DNA of 64,000 nt from Branchiostoma floridae (lineage: Eukaryota; Chordata; Leptocardii; Amphioxiformes; Branchiostomatidae): contig NC_049985.1 in NCBI RefSeq assembly GCF_000003815.2, forward strand, positions 18,191,838-18,255,837, in the 5' to 3' direction. Made by a program: the position numbers and the translations under genes. Shown in pieces: positions 4,637 to 63,074 of the stretch (positions are counted from its first letter, which is position 1; each line of letters starts with the position of its first letter). The notes below the pieces were generated by a model, which saw only the letters and a program-made list of their open reading frames with translations, made no database searches and was not told where the DNA came from.

Positions 4637-6193
4637 AAAAACAACTCAACAGTACGCAATTCACAGGAGAAGAGCAATCCCCAAACTGGCCAAAGTGAGA
4701 TACAGAAAATGGAAAGCAAGAAAAAACAACTCACAGAGGAAATTGCAATGTTGGAAGAGGCGAGGGCACACCTCAAGAGAGAGATAGCCATGTTAGAAGA
4801 AAAGAAGAATTGTTTCTCAGTCAATGACCTGGAAGTACACAATGAGACAGTAGCATGGGGGGTTCAAGATGGCACAGATCATGATCAGAACGAAGATGAA
4901 CAGGTGTGTTCTGCTGAAGATGGAAAGGATAAGGAGACAGGAAGTCAAGAGGGAAACCAGAAGGAAAGAGAGAAGAGGAAAACGTTTCAGTCAGGGGAAG
5001 AGGAAACTGAACAGGTGTGTTCTGCTGAAGATGGAAAGGATAAGGAGACAGGAAGTCAAGAGGGAAACCAGAAGGAAAGAGAGAAGAGGAAAACGTTTCA
5101 GCAAAGGGAAGGGGAAGCTGAACAGGTGTGTTCTGCTGAAGATGGAAAGGATAAGGAGACTGGAAGTCAAGAGGGAAACCAGAAGGAAAGAGAGAAGAGG
5201 AAAACGTTTCAGCAAAGGGAAGGGGAAGCTGAACAGGTGTGTTCTGCTGAAGATGGAAAGGATAAGGAGACAGGAAGTCAAGAGGGAAACCAGAAGGAAA
5301 GAGAGAAGAGGAAAACGTTTCAGCAAAGGGAAGAGGAAGCTGAACAGAGAAAGAGGATGGAGCAAACCAACGAAAGGGATACGCCCATACAGGAAGGCTC
5401 ATGGGTCGGTGTTTGGTACGAGGGGGACAGGAAGCGTGATCCAGGAAAGTGGTACCCCGGGGAAGTTTTAGAAGTCCACAAAGANNNNNNNNNNNNNNNN
5501 NNNNNNNNNNNNNNNNNNNNNNNNNNNNNNNNNNNNNNNNNNNNNNNNNNNNNNNNNNNNNNNNNNNNNNNNNNNNNNNNNNNNNNNNNNNNNNNNNNNN
5601 NNNNNNNNNNNNNNNNNNNNNNNNNNNNNNNNNNNNNNNNNNNNNNNNNNNNNNNNNNNNNNNNNNNNNNNNNNNNNNNNNNNNNNNNNNNNNNNNNNNN
5701 NNNNNNNNNNNNNTTCAGCAAAGGGAAGGGGAAGCTGAACAGGTGTGTTCTGCTGAAGATGGAAAGGATAAGGAGACAGGAGGTCAAGAGGGAACCAGAG
5801 GAAAGAGAGAAGAGGAAAACGTTTCAGCAAAGGGAAGAGGAAGCTGAACAGAGAAAGAGGATGGAGCAAACCAAGGAAAGGGATAGGCCCATACAGGAAG
5901 GCTCATGGGTCGGTGTTTGGTACGAGGGGGACAGGAAGCGTGATCCAGGAAAGTGGTACCCCGGGGAAGTTTTAGAAGTCCACAAAGACGAGCTGAGTGT
6001 TGACTTTTTACATCCAGACCCATCAGGCGGCTATACAAAACCAAAATCAAAGGATGAAGCACTGGTTAAGATGGTCTTCGTTCTCCACACTGACCTGCAT
6101 GTTAAGCAGGTAAGTGAGAAAAAGTGGGAGGTAAAAGAAAAAAGGGTTCTGGATAAGAAATGCAAGCGTTTCAAGCCCCCACGTAGGTTGTAA
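4637..6193 (+). CDS. third visible, probably terminal exon: coiled coil, 37-residue repeats, C-terminal module
   Basis: The acceptor (TTTCTTTCAG) ends at 4636, phase 0. The exon encodes a coiled-coil-like segment (KKKQLTEEIAMLEEARAHLK), then four in-frame copies of a 37-residue highly charged repeat beginning VCSAEDGKDKE, an assembly gap, a fifth partial repeat, and a C-terminal module (GSWVGVWYEGDRKRDPGKWY, then FLHPDPSGGYTKPKSKDEAL). The module resembles the small basic W-x-V ... WYPG tail domains of transposon-related invertebrate proteins; this is inference. The frame stays open to a stop at 6193. A GTAAGT at 6110 could end the exon instead, but the read-through tail (KKWEVKEKRVLDKK) looks like a natural continuation. 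The repeat copy after the gap has two single-base deletions that shift frame, and 5852-5988 repeats 5348-5484. The assembled exon is therefore probably not one real allele. Confidence 0.6.
   Translation, partial: KNNSTVRNSQEKSNPQTGQSEIQKMESKKKQLTEEIAMLEEARAHLKREIAMLEEKKNCFSVNDLEVHNETVAWGVQDGTDHDQNEDEQVCSAEDGKDKETGSQEGNQKEREKRKTFQSGEEETEQVCSAEDGKDKETGSQEGNQKEREKRKTFQQREGEAEQVCSAEDGKDKETGSQEGNQKEREKRKTFQQREGEAEQVCSAEDGKDKETGSQEGNQKEREKRKTFQQREEEAEQRKRMEQTNERDTPIQEGSWVGVWYEGDRKRDPGKWYPGEVLEVHKXXXXXXXXXXXXXXXXXXXXXXXXXXXXXXXXXXXXXXXXXXXXXXXXXXXXXXXXXXXXXXXXXXXXXXXXXXXXXFSKGKGKLNRCVLLKMERIRRQEVKREPEEREKRKTFQQREEEAEQRKRMEQTKERDRPIQEGSWVGVWYEGDRKRDPGKWYPGEVLEVHKDELSVDFLHPDPSGGYTKPKSKDEALVKMVFVLHTDLHVKQVSEKKWEVKEKRVLDKKCKRFKPPRRL
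4904..5347 (+). repeat. 111-bp coding tandem repeat, 4 copies
   Basis: Four 37-codon units start VCSAEDGKDKE and end near EAEQ. They are almost identical apart from the last residues of the first copy. A fifth copy follows the gap at about 5714-5851 and is out of frame at its start. Confidence 0.92.
5485..5713. other. assembly gap (229 N) inside a repeat exon
   Basis: The gap is flanked by near-identical sequence: 5348-5484 is repeated at 5852-5988 with two substitutions in the aligned part. The assembler probably placed two overlapping or allelic contigs in series. Confidence 0.95.
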
Positions 6194-42600: not shown

Positions 42601-43909
42601 GCTATGAACTTGTCATTATGTTGTAATACATTTATATTATTGCTTAGTCATGATTGCAGTATTGTTCAGCAAGGTAGTGAAGTTAACTGAGTTAATATTT
42701 TACTACCCCACAATTTACAAGCTCACTATAGACAACAGGCATAAAAAGAGTCGGATACAGTTTTGATCAAGAAATATGATTGAGAGTAAACCAACCATCA
42801 CACACAAGCACAACTTCTTGGTACCAAATTATATACTAAGTTGCACAGCATAGATATATTTTCAAACATGTACATTTTTGATAGCGTAAGAACAGTTCAA
42901 GACTAGAAATTATACTACTTACCTGCCATCTACAATTTGAAGAAGAATTATATTTGGAGATTTTGGGATTTCAGATTGACACAAACAAGTTGCAATATGG
43001 CTGACTAAAATAATATAGAATTTGACCGATGAAATATTGTAGAACTAGAAATTCAAACTCTAGTCTTCATCAGTGAATTGCTCATCCCTAAATACAAAAA
43101 CTGGACCAGTTGGAAAGTGGAAGTCCAATCGATCTGTAATGGTTACTAGTACAATGTAGTAGTAACATAGATTAACAATTCTTCATGAAATTCTTTCTAC
43201 TACAGTAAAAGCAGAAACTTTTGCGGTGGTTTAGAGTTCACAAACATTTTTCCATGGCTGTAAGAGACTACATTGCATGGTGCTAAGTACTGTGAACTTA
43301 AAACCACCGCGAAAAGTCCTTGTTCCCGCTACCGCGAAATTAAATCCCCTCAAACTTAAATGCATTTATAGTATTTTGAGCCATACACAAACAAACAAAC
43401 AAACACAATGTTGAACATATAAATAACAACAACACAAACAAGATAACAGCACACTCTCACCTGCTCATGTGTTTGATCTCGCTGGGAACCGTCTGCAGTC
43501 TGTTGGCACCGAGATACAGAACCCGTAGTCCCGCCATTCCCGCGATCTGTCCCGGGAACTCCGTAAAACGGTTCCCGCTCAGGTTCAAAACCTCCAGGCT
43601 GAGACACCGGTCCAGCTCCTTGGGCAGAGCTCCGTCTTCCAGGAGGTTGTTCTTGGCGATGAACGTCTTAAGATTGGGCAGGCGCGTGAGCTCGCCCGAG
43701 ACGTGGGTGAGCCCGTTGGCACTGATGTCTAAGTGTCGGAGCTCGCGGAACAGCGACACGGCGCGGGGCAGGACAAGTATCCGGTTGTTGTTCAGGTGTA
43801 GGCTCCGGATTCTGTCCGCTTTCTCAGAAAGGTGCTCCGGAAAAAGGTCCAGGTCAGAGTACGCCAAGTCCACGCGGTGTTCATCCGACACGTCGTCTTC
43901 GAACATCAT
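30415..43909 (-). CDS. LRRC58: LRRC58 orthologue (leucine-rich repeat-containing protein 58)
   Basis: Three exons are visible: 43461-43909, 36667-36795 (cut by a gap) and 30415-30623. Together they give the N-terminal LRRs (RIRSLHLNNNRILVLPRAV; LEVLNLSGNRFTEFPGQIA), LEVLYLGGNQISSLPVEVG, LVLCDNRLESIPPQLA, and the diagnostic C-terminus QIKFVDFCGKYRLPL, an acidic SESESEEE stretch and KKVLLG at the stop. Order, spacing and C-terminus match vertebrate LRRC58 as I remember it. The exon with the last LRRs and the following region is not visible and probably lies in a gap (35831-36666 or 32732-33037). LRRC58 is an LRR protein; vertebrate work links it to ubiquitin-ligase substrate recognition, which I cannot judge from sequence. 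Partial tandem copies of two exons lie inside the introns. Confidence 0.92.
30715..30770 (-). pseudogene. partial tandem copy of LRRC58 last exon
   Basis: This lies 146 bp upstream (in gene orientation) of the real exon start. A diverged copy reads VYFDAGVKQILFVDAC where the real exon reads VYFDARVKQIKFVDFC. Its acceptor has changed from CAG to AAG, and 146 bp is not a multiple of three. It looks like a decayed duplication of the acceptor plus the first part of the exon. Confidence 0.8.
30967..30998. promoter_or_regulatory. two tandem X-box-like palindromes
   Basis: ATTACCATGGTAAC at 30967-30980 and ATTACCATGGTAAA at 30985-30998 resemble the RFX-factor X-box (GTTRCCATGGYAAC). They sit in an LRRC58 intron. 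Function is not shown. Confidence 0.35.
31069..31270. repeat. minisatellite, about 45-bp unit, 4-5 copies
   Basis: Units of GAGGGTTTTTACAGTGCCTG followed by a TGGTGTACCAAGG-type segment alternate in small variants. Intronic in LRRC58. Confidence 0.85.
31896..32249. mobile_element. MITE, GGCCACACC-type (Harbinger-like), inverted copy
   Basis: TTA target duplications lie at 31893-31895 and 32250-32252. The interior is in the opposite orientation to the copies at 17817, 25912 and 29475. Confidence 0.88.
32643..32673. repeat. perfect short palindrome
   Basis: ATTTTAGCGTAGTGG and its exact inverse are separated by a single base. Another half-copy follows at about 32680. A CAGGGC just to the left is compatible with a hAT-like terminus cut by the gap. 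Confidence 0.8.
32732..33037. other. assembly gap (306 N)
   Basis: Unsequenced. A missing LRRC58 exon could lie here. Confidence 0.99.
33038..34251. other. LRRC58 intron, no exon seen
   Basis: Contains a C-run followed by an A-run at about 33893-33912. Overlapping open frames at 33751-34081 on both strands have no recognisable product. Confidence 0.4.
34252..34778. repeat. 58-bp minisatellite, 9 copies
   Basis: The unit starts ACAAATTTTTCTTCTAAAAT and contains GTTGGTAACAGTAATAC. The last five copies are virtually identical and the first four carry small indels. Intronic in LRRC58. Confidence 0.95.
35831..36666. other. assembly gap (836 N) cutting LRRC58 exon 2
   Basis: The 3' part of the second LRRC58 exon, and perhaps the next exon, is missing here. 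Confidence 0.99.
36667..36795 (-). CDS. LRRC58: LRRC58 second exon, 5' part (rest in gap)
   Basis: The acceptor is AATTCCAG. The exon enters in phase 2, continuing ...HMS-R from exon 1. It encodes two LRRs, LEVLYLGGNQISSLPVEVG and LQSLVLCDNRLESIPPQLA, before running into the gap. Confidence 0.9.
36859..36915 (-). pseudogene. tandem copy of LRRC58 exon 2 start with intact acceptor
   Basis: This is a near-identical copy of the acceptor and the first ~57 bp of exon 2, exactly 120 bp upstream of the real one. The frame stays open from this copy through the intervening sequence into the real exon, so its use would add 40 residues without a frameshift. Confidence 0.85.
36975..37027 (-). pseudogene. 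second, decayed tandem copy of LRRC58 exon 2 start
   Basis: This is a more diverged copy (FEVLYLRGSQISSL) with its own CCCCCAG acceptor, 112 bp upstream of the other copy. Its frame runs into a stop soon after. Confidence 0.75.
37030..38399. other. LRRC58 first intron, no exon seen
   Basis: No supported exon or clear repeat. Confidence 0.4.
38400..38613 (-). mobile_element. tRNA-derived SINE, reverse strand, truncated
   Basis: On the minus strand a tRNA-like head (TGGCGCAATCGGCAGC, then GAGTTCGAACCCC) is followed by the same core as the SINE at 24801 (CTTGGGAAAGGCACTTTACA). The tail is missing. Confidence 0.8.
38817..38950. mobile_element. left end of a GGCCACACC-type element, truncated
   Basis: TTA followed by GGCCACACCTACTTGATTAA begins like the Harbinger-like MITEs, but no matching right end is found. 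CTGCTTGGAGATTAGG-type sequence of another element follows. Confidence 0.4.
39914..40242. mobile_element. non-autonomous hAT-like element (329 bp)
   Basis: The termini are CAGGGCTCTAGCCAGC at the left and the inverse of CAGGGCTTTAGCCAGC at the right. The 8-bp target duplication GATACAAC lies at 39906-39913 and 40243-40250. The 8-bp duplication and CAGGG ends are hAT hallmarks. The duplicate segment at 42153-42160 has a single GATACAAC, the empty site. Confidence 0.93.
40981..41178. mobile_element. foldback MITE, TACTCTCCAAGCAGAGG ends
   Basis: There are inverted arms of about 85 bp: TACTCTCCAAGCAGAGG at the left and CCTCTGCTTGGACAGTA at the right. The interior arms match (GTTTTCTTCATG / CATGAAGAAAAC type). 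It has no coding capacity. Confidence 0.85.
41650..42720. repeat. segmental duplication, copy B
   Basis: It has the same order of landmarks as copy A (39390-41322) but no hAT-like insertion. A deletion removes about 400 bp, including the left arm of the foldback element. SINE-core-like sequence (TTGTGTCCTTGGGAAA) precedes it at about 41590. Confidence 0.85.
42452..42592. mobile_element. foldback MITE, left arm deleted
   Basis: Corresponds to the interior and right arm of 40981-41178, ending CCTCTGCTTGGACAGTA. The left terminus is missing. Confidence 0.75.
43217..43317. repeat. inverted repeat with TTTTGCGGTGGTTT arms
   Basis: ACTTTTGCGGTGGTTTAGAG and the near-inverse CTTAAAACCACCGCGAAAAG flank about 50 bp. 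It is probably a small foldback element close to LRRC58 exon 1. Confidence 0.7.
43461..43909 (-). CDS. LRRC58: LRRC58 first coding exon
   Basis: It starts at an ATG (MMFEDDVSDEHRVDLAYSDL) at 43909, with a second in-frame ATG next to it. The donor is GTGAGA, and it leaves in phase 2. It encodes about 149 residues: an N-terminal cap, then LRRs including LRHLDISANGLTHVSGELTR, LKTFIAKNNLL and LRVLYLGANRLQTVPSEI. The exon is visibly more GC-rich than its surroundings. A 150-codon frame on the opposite strand is a shadow. Confidence 0.92.
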
Positions 43910-44433
43910 CTTGTCTTAGTCCTTCTTTGTGCACAGGCTTCCTTAAGTTTAACTACAGCAAGGAACCTGATCTAGTACCGATAATCTCCTCGAACAAGCC
44001 ACAAGCAAAGAGATGAAACACAAGTGGTTTCACCATGGCTACAGTCTGTACAGAACCCAGCAGCACACCGAGGATAGGTCCTGCCCCTGTACTTCTATTA
44101 GTTCTAACATAACTCACAGGAAGCCTGCTGTACAGCCAGCCGGTAAAACTCCTCTCACAGAAAACTCACCCCCCAAACCTGCATGGCACGTCCCTCTGGG
44201 TCACAAAAACATCCCTTCCCACTCCACAACCAACATGTCTACAGGACCAGCTAACTTCTCCTGTACCACCCCACCACCACAGGCCAGTTCTGCAAAGTCA
44301 CTGCAGGCAGCCCAGTTAGCGGCCCAACTGTCTGCACTGTGCCTTCTCTGTGCATGCAGGGTTGACCTTTGTACCCACTTGTGTTATTCAACAGCTGGGT
44401 CATTGCATAAGCCAGGCTTGTAACATAAATATA
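43910..44433. other. LRRC58 5' flank
   Basis: Presumed promoter and 5' untranslated region of LRRC58. A 136-codon plus-strand frame (44013-44423) is not recognisable and probably not a gene. Confidence 0.4.
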
Positions 44434-54333: not shown

Positions 54334-55350
54334 ATGGTTTTATGGTGCTGATGAGACTGATGGTTTTATGGTGCTGATGAGACGGTGATGGTTTTATGGT
54401 GGTGATGAGACGGTGATGGTTTTATGGTGCTGATGAGACTGATGGTTTTATGGTGCTGATGAGACTGATGGTTTTATGGTGCTGATGAGACTGATGGTTT
54501 TATGGTGCTGATGAGACGGTGATGGTTTTATGGTGCTGATGAGACGGTGATGGTTTTATGGTGCTGATGAGACGGTGATGGTTTTATGGTGGTGATGAGA
54601 CGGTGATGGTTTTATGGTGCTGATGAGACTGATGGTTTTATGGTGCTGATGAGACTGATGGTTTTATGGTGCTGATGGGACGGTGATGGTTTTATGGTGC
54701 TGATGAGACATTGATAGTTTTATGGTGCTGTTGAAACTTTGATTTTTTTAAATTTCTGCTGAGACATTGATGGCTTCTCTCGTACCACTGACCTTCTGTA
54801 GACATGATGGGATCGCGGTGATTTTCTAGTGATGATGGGACCACTGTGATTTTGTAATGCTGGTGGGACCTCGGCAATATTGTAGAGATGATGGAACAAC
54901 GGTGATTTTTAATTGATGATAGAACCATGGTGATTTTGTAGACCTAATGGTACCATGGCATATTTGTAGTGATGATTGCACCATGGAAATTTTGTAGACA
55001 TTGGTGCTGATGGGACCATTGTGATTTTGTAATGCTTGTGGGACCACGTTAATATTGTAGAGATGATGGGAGCACGGTATTTTTGAAGTGATGATTGGAT
55101 GACGGTGATTATGTAGTGCTGATGAGAAAAAGTTGGATTTACAGTTCTGATGAGGTGTCAGTGTTGATGGTGATGATGGGATCTCGGTCCTTTTATGCTG
55201 CTGCTGAGATCACTGTGGTTTTGTAGTAGTTGTGAGCCATCGGTGGTTTTATAGTCACTATGAGACGACGGTAACGGGGTTTGATGGGCTGATGACACAT
55301 TGTTGCTTGTATTGCACGGATGAGATGGCAATGGTTTTACTGTCCCGATT
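54334..55350. repeat. minisatellite, 25/28-bp units, 15 good copies then degenerate units
   Basis: TGGTTTTATGGTGCTGATGA followed by GACTGA or GACGGTGA repeats 15 times up to about 54740. It then decays into longer units with GATGGGACCATGGTGATTTTG words up to about 55350. It lies directly downstream of the VioB-like gene. Confidence 0.88.
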
Positions 55351-55466: not shown

Positions 55467-58084
55467 TCACTTGTCCTGAAACTCGAATGTTGGTGCGGCG
55501 TTTGGCCCAATCTCAGGATTTCCATTTGGGTCTATTGGCGTCTGCACAAGCCTTTTGCCCCAACCTGTAAGTGACGACATCATGCCCATACAGTCCGTCT
55601 TCATCTTGTCTGGGTTTCCATTGAAAGCTTCATGGATGCACTTCAGCAGGCCTGTGTAGATCTTGTTGAAGTTGTCAGAATATTTGCGAGCCTGCGATTC
55701 TGGAGGATAACTCTCGGTTTGAGGGTTAGATATTGACGGCCAGACACCATCTTCAAAGAAAGGCACGAGTCGTCCAACGAAGCTGAATGTCTTCTTACAA
55801 GGTATGTCTTCATCGCATGGGAAGAAGTTGTCAAAACACTGTCCCATTGATGTGTCGTCTGGGTCTGTTTCTCTCAGCCTCCGTCCATGCACCACCTCAG
55901 CAAACTTGAAGTAATGTGAAATCTCATTCCTTTTATCAAACGGGGCGCAAGGGTCGCTCCCTTCGCCCTCGGTAGCGATGTCTATTATCGCATCTAATGC
56001 GCTCCTAAGGTCAGTCACTGCATATGGGGAACTGTCATTACTGCCAAGCCATTGGGCACTCGTTATTTGCTTCTTACTTTCTCCTGTAAATATCGTAACT
56101 CCATTCTCTCCTGCATTCCTCTCCAGTTTGGCCATGGGGTAGAGGATCTGATAGATGTAGATGGCGCCGATGGTCTGAGGCCTCGTCGTTGTCTTTTCAC
56201 ACAACTTGCAGATTTCCCTAGCAATGTCGTTAGGGTTGTCATCACTGTATCTTATTATACGTTTTCTTTGAGTGCGAAGATACTGAACCACTTCAGAATC
56301 CGTTATTGTACAGTCTGGCCTCTCTATCCCCTGGAAAACGGTTCGAATGTGGTTCAAAGAGCATCTCGCGAGCTTTACCACAAGACCAGGGTTGGCTCCC
56401 CCTGGAAGTGCTGCTGGATAGGACGGTACTATAGACCGATGGTTCAATTTTGGCGCACCCCCAATCGCGTTCAGGAGGTTGGAGACCAGAGCCATATGTT
56501 TCATCTCATCGACAACAACACTTTTGATCAGGGCGGCCACCTCTCTGTTGTAGCCATCTTTTATCGAGAACAGCGCACTCAGGTAGGGAGGAATAGTAGA
56601 CAGCTCTAGTTGGAGAGCAATCTGGAGGGTCCGTTTTAGATCATCTAAGGTGTCCGTGATCGTACCCAACAGTGGGTTGTCTAACCATGATAAAATCATC
56701 TTTCGTTTTTGCGGGGACAGGTCCCTGGTCACAGGCATGTAGTTGGAGTGAGCTACTGGGAGATCATTAAGAGCATGTCTGAGTAATTTCAATTTTCCAG
56801 TAACATCCTCGTAGCTTGCAAGGTTGATCATTGGCTTCATGACGGGATAGAGGTTGGCGTACTGTTGGAATATCGGGTAGACATGTTCGTACCAGGTTAC
56901 CTCACCAGGAGTGAAGGTGAACTCTGAATACAGGTGGATTGATACCGTTAAGTCCTGAACCTTGAATTCTGTCCCATCATCACCTTTCTTGGCCATTATA
57001 TCATAGAAGTATACCTGGCCATCAAGCTGCTTTCCCCCCCTAGGTTCACCAGGATTACTGGACCGGAATGTAATCGTGGAAATACCGTCGTTGCCGGATG
57101 GTTCAGTGCTGCTGATAACTATTGCTGGACTCGAGTCGAATAGAGGAAAGAACACGATGGATATCTGATCAGCAGACCTGCCATACTGGAAAGTGCGAAA
57201 CCTCATTGTCCAGTCACTGTTGGGCTCTTTTCGCATAACATGGTTGTCGACAGCCTCGACGAACAAGCCATCTTGTCTTTCCTTCAACACTGGCTCGCAG
57301 TGCGTTGGGGACATTCCTTGTACGACCGCTAATGGGGTGTTCTTAATTGTTTCAATTACCGTGTCTGTCACTGAAAGGTAAGTGATGCCTGCAGTCCTCT
57401 GAAACCAGTCGTCTCCACCGAGTGTGATTTTTCCCAGGTTGTATTTCTCGTTGTCCAGAAGTTCGCGTCCTCGCGTCGTTCCTTTGTACTGAATAAGGTA
57501 CAGAGGTCCACCTGATGATTCGACTACGTTACCTTTAATGTCGAACTTCATGCTGTTGGCAAAGTCCAATACTACATTCTTCGTGAGGCTGTCAACATAG
57601 AATGGCACGTGACCACGCCCTTCAATACCTTCATTAGCCCACAGCATTCTTTTGTATGGACCATAAGGCAGAGGATTCTCTGACACAACTGCAGAAATGG
57701 TCCCAACCACACGGCCATACGGAAAGTCGGGAGACTTTGGGTCCACTATCATGTTGCGGACGTTGAGTTTGGCGTGCAACTGAAATCCACGTTCACAACG
57801 AAGGGACTTTACCTGCTGTATGAACGTGGACCTTCTTGATAGAAGCCCGTTGGTCCACTCCACATTCTGTAAGGTCGACAAAAAGACTGCAGAAAACCTG
57901 GTACTAATATACACTGTCCCGCAGTCCGATCCTTCACAGGCGTTGTGCATGTGGTTGAATGACCGGGGTTTGAGGTCCCCTTTGAAGAACCCATCCACGC
58001 CTATTACGAGGCCCCATATCTCAGATTGTACTTGATTGTCTGTATCCAGATCGACGAGCTTGCCTGCGGTTGTGCTGTCTGAAC
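55467..58084 (-). CDS. VioB-like gene, second exon
   Basis: The acceptor is GATTATCCAG. The exon has 871 codons plus a stop without interruption, entering in phase 1. It is far longer than any other exon in the window. It starts SDSTTAGKLVDLDTDNQVQS and ends APTFEFQDK. A start inside it (a GTG at 57998) is not needed because the frame continues upstream to the acceptor. Confidence 0.88.
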
Positions 58085-59838
58085 CTGGATAATCAACGTA
58101 GCTTCATTTAGGCATTTTTGTGCTAAATGAGTAAATTAAATACGAGCACTGTGGGTAAGGCCATGTTGATTTGATTAAATTGATGACATCCACGTGGGAT
58201 GACATCCAGCAATTTTCGGTCAAAAATGAAGAACCAAAAGACTGTAAATCGTACAACAGCTGCAAAATGAGCAAACACATACCGTAGATTGCAAAAGAAT
58301 ATCGAAAAATCGAATACTAATGTCACAGAATGCCAATGTCAATTCCAAGGTGTGTTTAGTCATTTGTGCGAAATTCCTGACCACTTAGTCTTAGATTTCA
58401 TGCTTTCATAATGAAGGCAGCTTTTTTTGGGTCAAACTAATCAAGTCAACTTGGCCTAATGAAGGAAAAGTGTAAACTCAAGGTTTTTTTTGCTTCCACC
58501 TTAGGTTAGTGGCAAAACCAACAATAAAACGTTTTATAAGCAAAAACAGTAAGGATGCCAAAACCCGATTTGGCTCATATTTTGCACAGTAATTAGACTT
58601 GGCCGACAATCCTCAACAAAGCATTCTGTCAGCTCAAGACCCATTGTGGCCCATTTGTACAATTTTGAGGAGCTGTAAATCTCAAAGTGTACAATATTTT
58701 TGCTTGAAATCTATCACATGTATAGATACATAAAATAGCTATTAGTTGAATTCTTGCAAAATTTGTCTGAGTCAGCTAGGGACATTCTCAATTGCACGTT
58801 AATTGAACCACTAATTTCTTTAGACGGGATAACACGGGTGTGGTTATCTTGAGCTCAACTCAGTCACTCATAAAATCCTGAACAACAAATTCAAATACTT
58901 CAATCTCAAGAAAACATATGCCTTTACCTTTGTGCCAAATTTCAACTCATTCGATGTAAAGATGAGGCTGCTATAAAACCGGTGGCATTACTTTTTGAAC
59001 GCCCCTCGAAGGAAACTTTTCCCAATTTCGAAAAAATGTAATTTTTTTTCTAATTTTGAAATACAAAGTCTAAGACAATGCTATAGTTTATTTTTCCTGT
59101 CAAGTGCAAACCTTTGTATGGTCGATTAATTGTATGCTTGAAAGTTTATGTGTTTCACCTTGCCGTGTGGCTGTCCCAAAAAGCAGTCCACGCTTTACAA
59201 GTATCCTCAACTTCAATTACGGTGCAAATCGTGAGCCAAATCAATTTTTTAAAACTATTGTTTGATCCTTAGATCTTGCAATGTTGATGGATAGATTAAT
59301 CATACCGATGGTGATTGAACGGAAAGCTTAGTCAAAAGATATGGGACATTAGAATCTTAAAAAGGAAGGCGTGAACAAACGTAGTCCCAACAGAAATGTT
59401 GATAACAACCTATATTCTACCAATCCTTCCTGAAACTGAGACCACCAGCGTACAGCATTATCATAATAATTACAAAATGGTGATATTTCATTCATGCAAA
59501 GGGATAATTCTGAATATCCTACATTCGCAAGGATGTCTTTTGAAATCGCGGACATAAATATTACCTATCAATCAATCAATCTTTATTACGCGACAAGTGT
59601 ACGGGTACAATACCTATGATCGGTTGACCGACAATAGGGTCGTTTTCGACACAGTGTCCGTCCTTGAGGCAGACTTTCGTCACTTTACAGTCGACCAACC
59701 GGAAATCATTACTTCCTTTGGGGTTGAAGTGAGGATTGTGCATGGGGTCAAACTTGTGGATGTCGAAATTTGACCAGTCGTTGTTGTAAGTTGAGACGTC
59801 AGCAAGAAATCTCCCAGCAAAGTTCAAACGCAGTATAG
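55467..59838 (-). CDS. VioB/RebD-like protein with ferritin-like domain
   Basis: Two exons (59614-59838 and 55467-58084) join in phase 1, at ...QPIIG-SDSTTAGKLVDLD, to give over 940 residues. The N-terminal part (NFAGRFLADVSTYNND; NPKGSNDFRLVDCKVTKVC; GKLVDLDTDNQVQSEIWG) matches the N-terminal half of VioB/RebD-type proteins. The C-terminal half has a ferritin-like domain of the iminophenyl-pyruvate dimer synthase family: LELSTIPPYL (Glu at 56604-56606), DEMKHM (E and H at 56496-56507), QTIGAIYIYQILY, and SHYFKFAEVVHGRRL. In bacteria VioB and RebD dimerise oxidised tryptophan products in violacein and rebeccamycin synthesis. The substrate here is unknown. The family looks bacterial, so horizontal transfer is the simplest reading. 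The first codons are not identified, because only a few residues should precede LRLNFAGRF. Confidence 0.85.
58159..58456. mobile_element. MITE, GGCCATGTTGATTTGATTA ends (298 bp)
   Basis: TAA target duplications lie at 58156-58158 and 58457-58459. It lies in the intron of the VioB-like gene, close to the acceptor. It is the compact relative of 48906-49775. Confidence 0.88.
58460..59613. other. intron of the VioB-like gene
   Basis: No additional exon is needed: the flanking exons join in phase within a continuous conserved sequence. Confidence 0.5.
59614..59838 (-). CDS. VioB-like gene, first visible exon
   Basis: The acceptor is TTCCTGCAG and the donor GTATTG. The 225-bp exon enters and leaves in phase 1. 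It encodes LRLNFAGRFLADVSTYNNDW through NPKGSNDFRLVDCKVTKVC to DPIVGQPIIG. The true start must be in a short upstream exon. One option is an ATG at 60027, whose frame meets a weak GTAGTC donor in the right phase. Confidence 0.8.
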
Positions 59839-60472
59839 CTGCAGGAATAACATCACATGTATATAGGCATAATCAATGATGCACAAATTCTGGATAAGCA
59901 TAAGGGTGTTCAATATGTTTCCTCCACACAGAATCGATCCTGGATTAGAGAAAAGACTACCTAGTATATAAACCATCCGACTGAGATGATCCATAATTAA
60001 CCGATGAAAAACCATAAACTGCCTCATTGACTATTCATTAAAGTGCGACATGGTGGATCCCACAAAAATTGATATCTACGTCAAGTACAACGTTCAAGAG
60101 TACAAACAGATAAATTGCGACTGACAAAAGGACAACGATTGACTGGAGTTAATGCATATAAAGATTTCTTGTAAGTACCTCTGATTGTACGGTGTTTGCG
60201 ATAGGTCTAGAGTCCATAGATAGACGGACACAATGTTTGGTGGTGGTTTTAATTTCATTTTGCAGACAGGTTGATTTATTTAATTTGTAGCCTCATTTGA
60301 TTAGCCTTTACACATTTGCTGTATGTTTATCGTTATTTCATTATTTCATTATAAAGGGTGAACACTGACACCACCGCGCTGCCTGGTGGATAAACAGGAC
60401 AAAAAGTCAGAGGCAAAAAACACTCAGTGACAAATTTGTTCTTGTCGCCTCCCTTACACAAAACTGTCTTTT
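59839..60472. other. 5' flank of the VioB-like gene
   Basis: Should contain the missing 5' exon and promoter. No convincing TATA box or start was identified. Confidence 0.35.
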
Positions 60473-63008: not shown

Positions 63009-63074
63009 CAGAGGAACTGGTGGGTTCAGTTTCAACTTCGTCTTCATCGCGTTCACAGGAGTCGTCAATGGAGC
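63009..63074 (-). CDS. candidate orphan exon, acidic
   Basis: The acceptor is TTCACTTTAG and the donor GTAAGT. The 66-bp exon, phase 1 on both sides, encodes SIDDSCERDEDEVETEPTSS. No partner exons are recognised in the window. Confidence 0.3.

Follow-up and report, generated by a model that had tools for sequence, protein, structure and literature searches.

A bacterial-type two-domain ferritin-like protein family, probably secreted, in the lancelet Branchiostoma floridae

Introduction

A described protein with a layout like that of the gene reported here is VioB, the iminophenyl-pyruvate dimer synthase of bacteria, which is built from two halves over about 1000 amino acids. According to passages of PMC9705886, VioB contains heme b, shows catalase activity and has no solved structure; passages of the same source give Caulobacter as the organism of 3hl1, a solved ferritin-like chain of 317 amino acids. 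Here we describe a gene of the same superfamily, PF12902, in the lancelet (amphioxus) Branchiostoma floridae. It lies on the minus strand at positions 55467–59838 of the window, the whole stretch of 64,000 nucleotides that was analysed (C7:18191838–18255837, in a genome of 513,431,437 bases on 431 contigs). The original prediction for this stretch had described it as an intron-containing, VioB/RebD-like gene of an animal-type genome.

PF12902 genes have also been printed for eukaryotes. Passages of PMC4417212 place them next to lodA/lodB-like genes in the fungus Gymnopus luxurians, and passages of PMC7563238 name PF12902 among the vesicle proteins of Schistosoma haematobium (assignment as printed), which we suspect to be ordinary ferritins. 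Apart from that mention, no study of an animal member was found in the portions of the open-licence PMC literature searched, and the word 'ferritin' is absent from the main text of the lancelet genome papers PMC12373286 and PMC4284660. A bacterial system that will recur below is the Ebo cluster, which PMC6282210 describes as involved in the transport of scytonemin precursors to the periplasm of cyanobacteria, and PMC5133447 as transferred to the plastids of some algae. The words 'ferritin' and 'VioB' are absent from the main text of both papers, and 'ferritin' also from the main text of another Ebo-related paper.

We propose, with a probability of roughly 0.6, that the lancelet gene belongs to a secreted family of bacterial-type dimetal oxidases, fused from two domains, expanded and kept by purifying selection.

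Results

Between 55467 and 59838, the gene consists of a long last exon (55467–58084) with an open frame of 871 amino acids (58082..55467) that runs to the stop codon, and a 225-nucleotide exon (59614–59838), joined across an intron with GT...AG borders at 59613/58085. Spliced together, the two exons encode 946 amino acids, to which all residue numbers refer. This fragment matched PF12902 with 181.9 bits (gathering cut-off 22.3; E 2.2e-53) over profile positions 1–220 of 221, which places a ferritin-like domain at residues 561–806 (55890–56627). Six candidate metal ligands, E568, E601, H604, E662, E782 and H798, are all present, so that the ferritin-like motifs claimed for the protein are indeed intact. 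We aligned the C half in 70 rows: 16 from amphioxus, 15 from bacterial genes with both halves fused in one frame, 38 from other bacterial loci, and VioB. E568, Y575, E601, H604 and Y717 are identical in all 70. E662 is kept in 15 of the 16 amphioxus rows (the other has aspartate), as are E782 and H798 (gapped in the partial locus L030), and all six positions occur in every fused row, every other bacterial row and VioB. An E/ExxH/E/E/H arrangement is the usual pattern of ferritin-like dimetal sites, and we infer that these positions are the dimetal ligands. Among solved chains, a profile of the C half matched 3hl1 (E 1.8e-20, over part of the domain) and two bacterioferritins; 3hl1 resembles the ferritin-like half of the window protein and, being so short, cannot hold the other half.

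The N half, encoded jointly by the 225-nucleotide exon and by 56658–58082, had no match to a Pfam family at E ≤ 10, and a profile of it built from 11 rows matched no PDB chain at E ≤ 1. The window copy and ten bacterial rows share identical residues in many of its columns, and the exon that starts it (ILRLNFAGRFLADVSTYNND...) is similar to the N-terminus MSYLNPLRLHFAGQFQANVSTVNND of the bacterial locus L004. A search of plasmids gave 165 matching records, in 8 of which a minimum of 80% of exon 2, the last exon, is matched at a single place. In those 8, the cover reaches 97–98% at 27–31% identity and extends over adjacent genes annotated 'hypothetical protein' and 'ferritin-like protein'. With its PF12902 C half and this bacterial N-half/C-half gene pair as counterpart, the protein thus has two halves, as predicted.

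VioB shares with the window protein the two-half layout, the ligand positions and a YMPxTRxLS block at the junction of the halves. The reference VioB, from the operon of Chromobacterium subtsugae (L136:4362–7358), where its gene adjoins what we take to be vioA, scored 1701.8 bits against TIGR04492 (cut-off 1250). In contrast, exon 2 (871 amino acids, without the first 75 residues of the fragment) had no match to this model at E ≤ 1 and aligned with VioB at 25% identity over 191 amino acids (E 4e-6). A blastp search with the ferritin half of the window protein at E 0.01 retrieved each of the 68 other rows of the alignment and missed VioB. In a scan of seven proteins, the N half of the bacterial locus L001 gave a weak match to the VioB model (28.9 bits, E 2.4e-7, residues 511–580) and the fused L031 did not match it; the match of L001 makes the kinship with VioB real but remote. 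The missing model match, the low identity and the high score of the control VioB rule out true VioB membership; of the VioB/RebD-like label, what stands is the common superfamily with its ligand positions. The C. subtsugae genome of L078 contains six PF12902 matches, one of which is VioB.

A PF12902 profile search of the lancelet genome matched 17 stretches, which represent 16 loci distributed over contigs C1, C5, C7, C10, C13, C16 and C305, two neighbouring stretches on C10 being one copy. On C16, four copies are packed into about 100 kb (9.20–9.30 Mb) and two more lie at 14.92–14.95 Mb, C5 has two at 8.44–8.46 Mb, and this clustering on C16 and C5 points to tandem growth. When the window protein was compared by tblastn with 15 fetched loci of the genome and with L010, the intron position proved to be common to the window and ten copies (L016, L017, L018, L019, L020, L023, L026, L028, L029 and L030). 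In these, the first tblastn piece begins at residue 1–3, just past an AG, and ends at residue 74–79 (97 in L020), and the second begins at 72–80. Judged by the gaps between pieces, their introns measure about 190–672 bp; that of the window (58085–59613) measures 1529 bp and contains segments of 40 and 96 bp that recur elsewhere in the window with 95% and 79% identity. Since ten other copies split at the same place, the GT/AG pair is not a chance one, which bears out the predicted 59614|58084 junction. Together with the 16 loci, the shared intron marks the gene as part of a resident animal family. The copy L030 (C10:1044500–1054000) is very similar to the window gene, with 67–80% identity by piece, has changes of reading frame, and is either a pseudogene or an assembly error.

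The gene extends beyond the predicted 55467–59838: both exons within that span stand, but base 59838 is the first after the 3' splice site of another, phase-1 intron ending at 59839, and not the gene start. The window copy, L018 and L030 appear to share two extra small 5' exons, both of phase 1. One, predicted at 63009–63074 on the minus strand (66 nucleotides, phase 1 in and out) from an AG/GT-flanked co-linear block common to L018 and L030, would encode the acidic linker GSIDDSCERDEDEVETEPTSSS; the other would lie about 4.4 kb beyond the right end of the window. Seven paralogues (L017, L019, L020, L023, L026, L028 and L029) have an upstream exon that starts with ATG, is hydrophobic and signal-peptide-like, and ends in a phase-1 donor; in L023 it encodes MVTAIRASLIVFLTLILSETSKA, followed by GFPRLHFSG, and L016 has a weaker candidate. 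These exons were judged by a scan for donors and hydrophobicity, not by a trained signal-peptide predictor, and because of them the amphioxus family is probably secreted.

Constraint was estimated by a Nei–Gojobori count on trimmed last exons. The dN/dS ratio was 0.28 for the window and L018 (857 codons), 0.48 for L022 and L024 (391 codons), and 0.16 for the window and L017, where dS is nearly saturated; the comparison of the window with L016 is saturated, and L019 and L023 gave 0.35 on untrimmed frames. On these values, purifying selection acts on the amphioxus copies, though apparently with less force in the pair L022/L024, which consists of ferritin-only copies. Cysteines number 14–27 in seven amphioxus last exons (window, L016–L019, L023 and L026) versus 1–10 in the matched span of the 15 bacterial fused genes, an excess as expected of a secreted protein.

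At least 568 stretches of genome contigs encode a relative, of which we studied the best 80 together with 7 plasmid loci. Judged by stop-to-stop frames, both halves lie in one frame at 15 of these 87 loci, and the N half lies in another frame at 53 (51 upstream; 2 downstream, L057 and L069). At the other 19 it was not seen, and L052, L103 and L104 among them start near a contig end. Fused genes fill 15 of the first 17 ranks, and the choice of the best 80 of 568 favours them. They come from Bacteroidota, Pseudomonadota (Undibacterium), Acidobacteriota, Actinomycetota and Myxococcota. Like the amphioxus genes, those of Roseivirga (L031), Undibacterium (L034), Solibacteraceae (L040) and Streptomyces (L042) have both halves in one frame, in the same order and with the same ligand positions, and the C halves of the fused genes are 33–39% identical to that of the window; unlike them, they have uninterrupted frames and fewer cysteines, and 6 of the 15 stand beside Ebo genes. 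The pairs of Aureibacter (L001), Gloeothece (L002) and Mycetohabitans (L004) comprise the same two halves as the amphioxus protein, but as two genes, and fall outside the amphioxus and fused group on the C half.

A first C-half tree of 68 rows omitted L030 and included 37 of the 72 non-fused bacterial loci (38 picked by hand across the ranking, minus L003, a duplicate of L059). The 15 amphioxus rows formed a clade with a support (SH-aLRT) of 100 and the 15 fused rows one with 92, the two were joined with 97, and the 37 other bacterial rows fell outside; VioB also stood outside, its branch measuring about 6 changes per column. A more careful tree of 57 rows also left out VioB, L020 and L028 (frame breaks), L005, and the distant L006, L007, L086, L091, L098, L099 and L110. 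It gave 100/100 for amphioxus, 99/96 for the fused genes and 100/98 for both against the rest. A phylogeny with bacterial homologues, as the original prediction envisaged, thus joins the amphioxus copies to bacterial fused genes on the C half, and VioB is not the nearest relative. Divergence between the amphioxus copies is deep in the C-half tree. By these comparisons, the nearest relatives among the sampled sequences (bacteria and VioB) are uncharacterised bacterial fused genes. N-half trees comprised 54 rows (8 of the 11 amphioxus copies that have this half, the 15 fused genes and 31 of the 53 loci with a separate N half) and gave supports of 100 for amphioxus and 99 for the fused genes. The simplest reading would be a single fusion that predates the split between the animal and the bacterial fused genes, which the N half by itself does not show.

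An Ebo neighbourhood, defined as at least two of six Ebo families within the fetched flanks, was present at 21 of the 87 loci (18 of the 80 genome loci; 6 of the 15 fused genes), a raw count with no random-locus control that includes L001, the source of the queries. Examples are L001, L034, L042, L048 and L078. The labels EboA, EboC and EboE are those of the annotation of L001, and we take its TatD hydrolase, dehydroquinate-synthase-like and phosphatase genes to be EboB, EboD and EboF. A neighbour in L034 scored 116.6 bits against the EboC model NF035940, under its cut-off of 250. The EboE protein of Aureibacter, a single query run without a positive control, had no match in the lancelet genome. 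By clustering, a LodA-like neighbour occurs at five loci, and the one tested reached 41.5 of the 750 bits of the GoxA model; PF17990 (LodA_N) had 0 matches in the lancelet genome, the control being positive in 1 of 14 named genomes. The flank of L004 contains an annotated tryptophan 7-halogenase. A GMC-type oxidoreductase flanks seven PF12902 loci with no detectable N half (L006, L007, L086, L098, L099, L108 and L110).

Elsewhere in the window, arrays of a 28-bp unit lie 0.3–1.1 kb downstream of the stop codon, at 54334–54734 (14.8 copies) and 54797–55124 (11.5 copies). A 57-bp unit is repeated 15 times at 1294–2150 within a 514-amino-acid open frame (822–2366) and encodes a repeated SSSEEDPVPKKKRRGKKSD protein, and a 111-bp unit (4892–5347, 4.1 copies) lies in a 544-amino-acid open frame broken by a run of N. 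One of eight tested open reading frames had a Pfam match at E ≤ 0.01, a fragment of a leucine-rich-repeat protein at 43457–43915. Scans of the window for Rfam families and tRNAs were negative.

Discussion

The 16 loci, the extra 5' exons, the signal peptides of paralogues and the bacterial sister group go beyond the original prediction, and the following course of events would accommodate them. The starting point would be a bacterial gene in which adjacent N-half and PF12902 C-half genes had fused into one frame, and which was transferred into the animal lineage. There, a signal-peptide exon and phase-1 introns would have been added, the number of cysteines would have risen, and further copies would have arisen by duplication on several chromosomes. 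The product would be secreted, as its paralogues suggest for the window copy itself. Its C half would adopt the ferritin-like fold of four helices and carry a dimetal centre, probably of iron (E568, E601/H604, E662, E782, H798). Having activated oxygen or peroxide, this centre would oxidise or couple a small compound, probably aromatic or derived from an amino acid, that the N half holds or helps to bind. It would act outside the cell, most plausibly in defence or surface chemistry. Substrate and role are our guesses, for which the metabolite genes beside some bacterial relatives served as a guide; the identity of the metal and catalysis as such are inferred from conserved positions and the superfamily.

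Several observations weigh against this proposal. Five copies (L021, L022, L024, L025 and L027, at C16 9.20–9.30 Mb and on C305) have the ferritin-like exon with an N half undetectable in the fetched stretch and form one clade (support 100), so that not every copy needs the N half. Some copies may be non-functional, given the frame changes that tblastn revealed in the coding part of L020, L028 and L030 and a stop codon that falls in frame close to the beginning of the last exon of L019 (C1:28680500–28689500), a copy that is otherwise long and open. In the window copy, a scan of the 9.8 kb upstream of 59838 brought up no persuasive candidate for a signal exon. The free N-half tree did not join the amphioxus and fused genes, although a tree constrained to do so had a log-likelihood 2.34 above that of the free tree (p-AU 0.591). 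The Ebo neighbourhood is a raw count, and because VioB is reported to contain heme b (passages of PMC9705886), a purely dimetal mechanism is still unproven in this superfamily.

The main rival is a secreted protein that binds metal, sequestering or storing iron, for example in nutritional immunity, and performs no oxidase chemistry. It would suit the ferritin-like profile match, the signal exons of the paralogues, the many copies and the five that consist of the C half, and the closest solved chains, 3hl1 and the two bacterioferritins, do not decide between metal store and oxidase. However, a plain metal store would not need the N half, which is strongly conserved from bacteria onward, and the bacterial neighbours suggest metabolite synthesis; we therefore regard it as unlikely. 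Less probable still, and in our judgement highly improbable, is a true imine dimer synthase of the VioB/RebD type, through which the animal would make a bisindole from tryptophan. VioB has the superfamily, the two-half layout and all six ligand positions in common with the window protein, the N half of a bacterial relative gave the weak match of 28.9 bits to the VioB model, and some relatives adjoin Ebo genes, linked in PMC6282210 to the export of scytonemin intermediates in cyanobacteria. Set against this are the lack of a model match by exon 2, where a real VioB attains 1701.8 bits, the 25% identity over 191 amino acids and the very long outside branch. A tryptophan-derived pigment, a role that the original prediction had raised, is possible, with no specific support here.

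Another alternative concerns the origin only and is compatible with a dimetal oxidase: the family may be an old eukaryotic inheritance, or have passed through another eukaryote, rather than having been taken up directly from bacteria by the lancelet lineage. The PF12902 genes printed for G. luxurians and S. haematobium (passages of PMC4417212 and PMC7563238) and the deep divergence of the amphioxus copies would agree with this, whereas the amphioxus rows form a single clade beside bacterial fused genes of several phyla; we consider it a serious possibility that is on balance not favoured. That the locus is bacterial contamination or a chimeric contig, as a protein of bacterial type might suggest, has a negligible probability and was ruled out by the paralogues, the shared intron and the chromosome-sized contig: C7 measures 25.95 Mb, the 16 loci lie on seven contigs, one intron is shared and repeats lie within it, in keeping with the original view of an animal gene. 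A viral carrier was also ruled out, as viral contigs gave 29 pattern matches, of which 0 were confirmed, and none of 50,697 phage records matched at E ≤ 0.01.

While the PF12902 domain is known, and the lancelet proteins are presumably already labelled by its name in public databases, the fused family is undescribed and its setting, probably secreted and expanded in an animal, is new. Tentatively, and with less confidence than in the dimetal oxidase family as such, we suggest that a chordate may have adopted a complete two-domain bacterial natural-product enzyme as about 16 fused, secreted genes, for extracellular oxidative defence or a small-molecule chemistry undescribed in animals, and that the N half may represent a new family which also occurs in bacterial clusters, often of the Ebo type. 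If the proposed dimetal oxidase family is real, it would offer a clear example of an enzyme of secondary metabolism, bacterial in type, that works in a chordate as a multigene family of secreted proteins, with its ligand positions intact and under purifying selection. The undescribed N-terminal family and PF12902, tied to Ebo genes in bacteria, would then also offer a handle on what Ebo clusters make.

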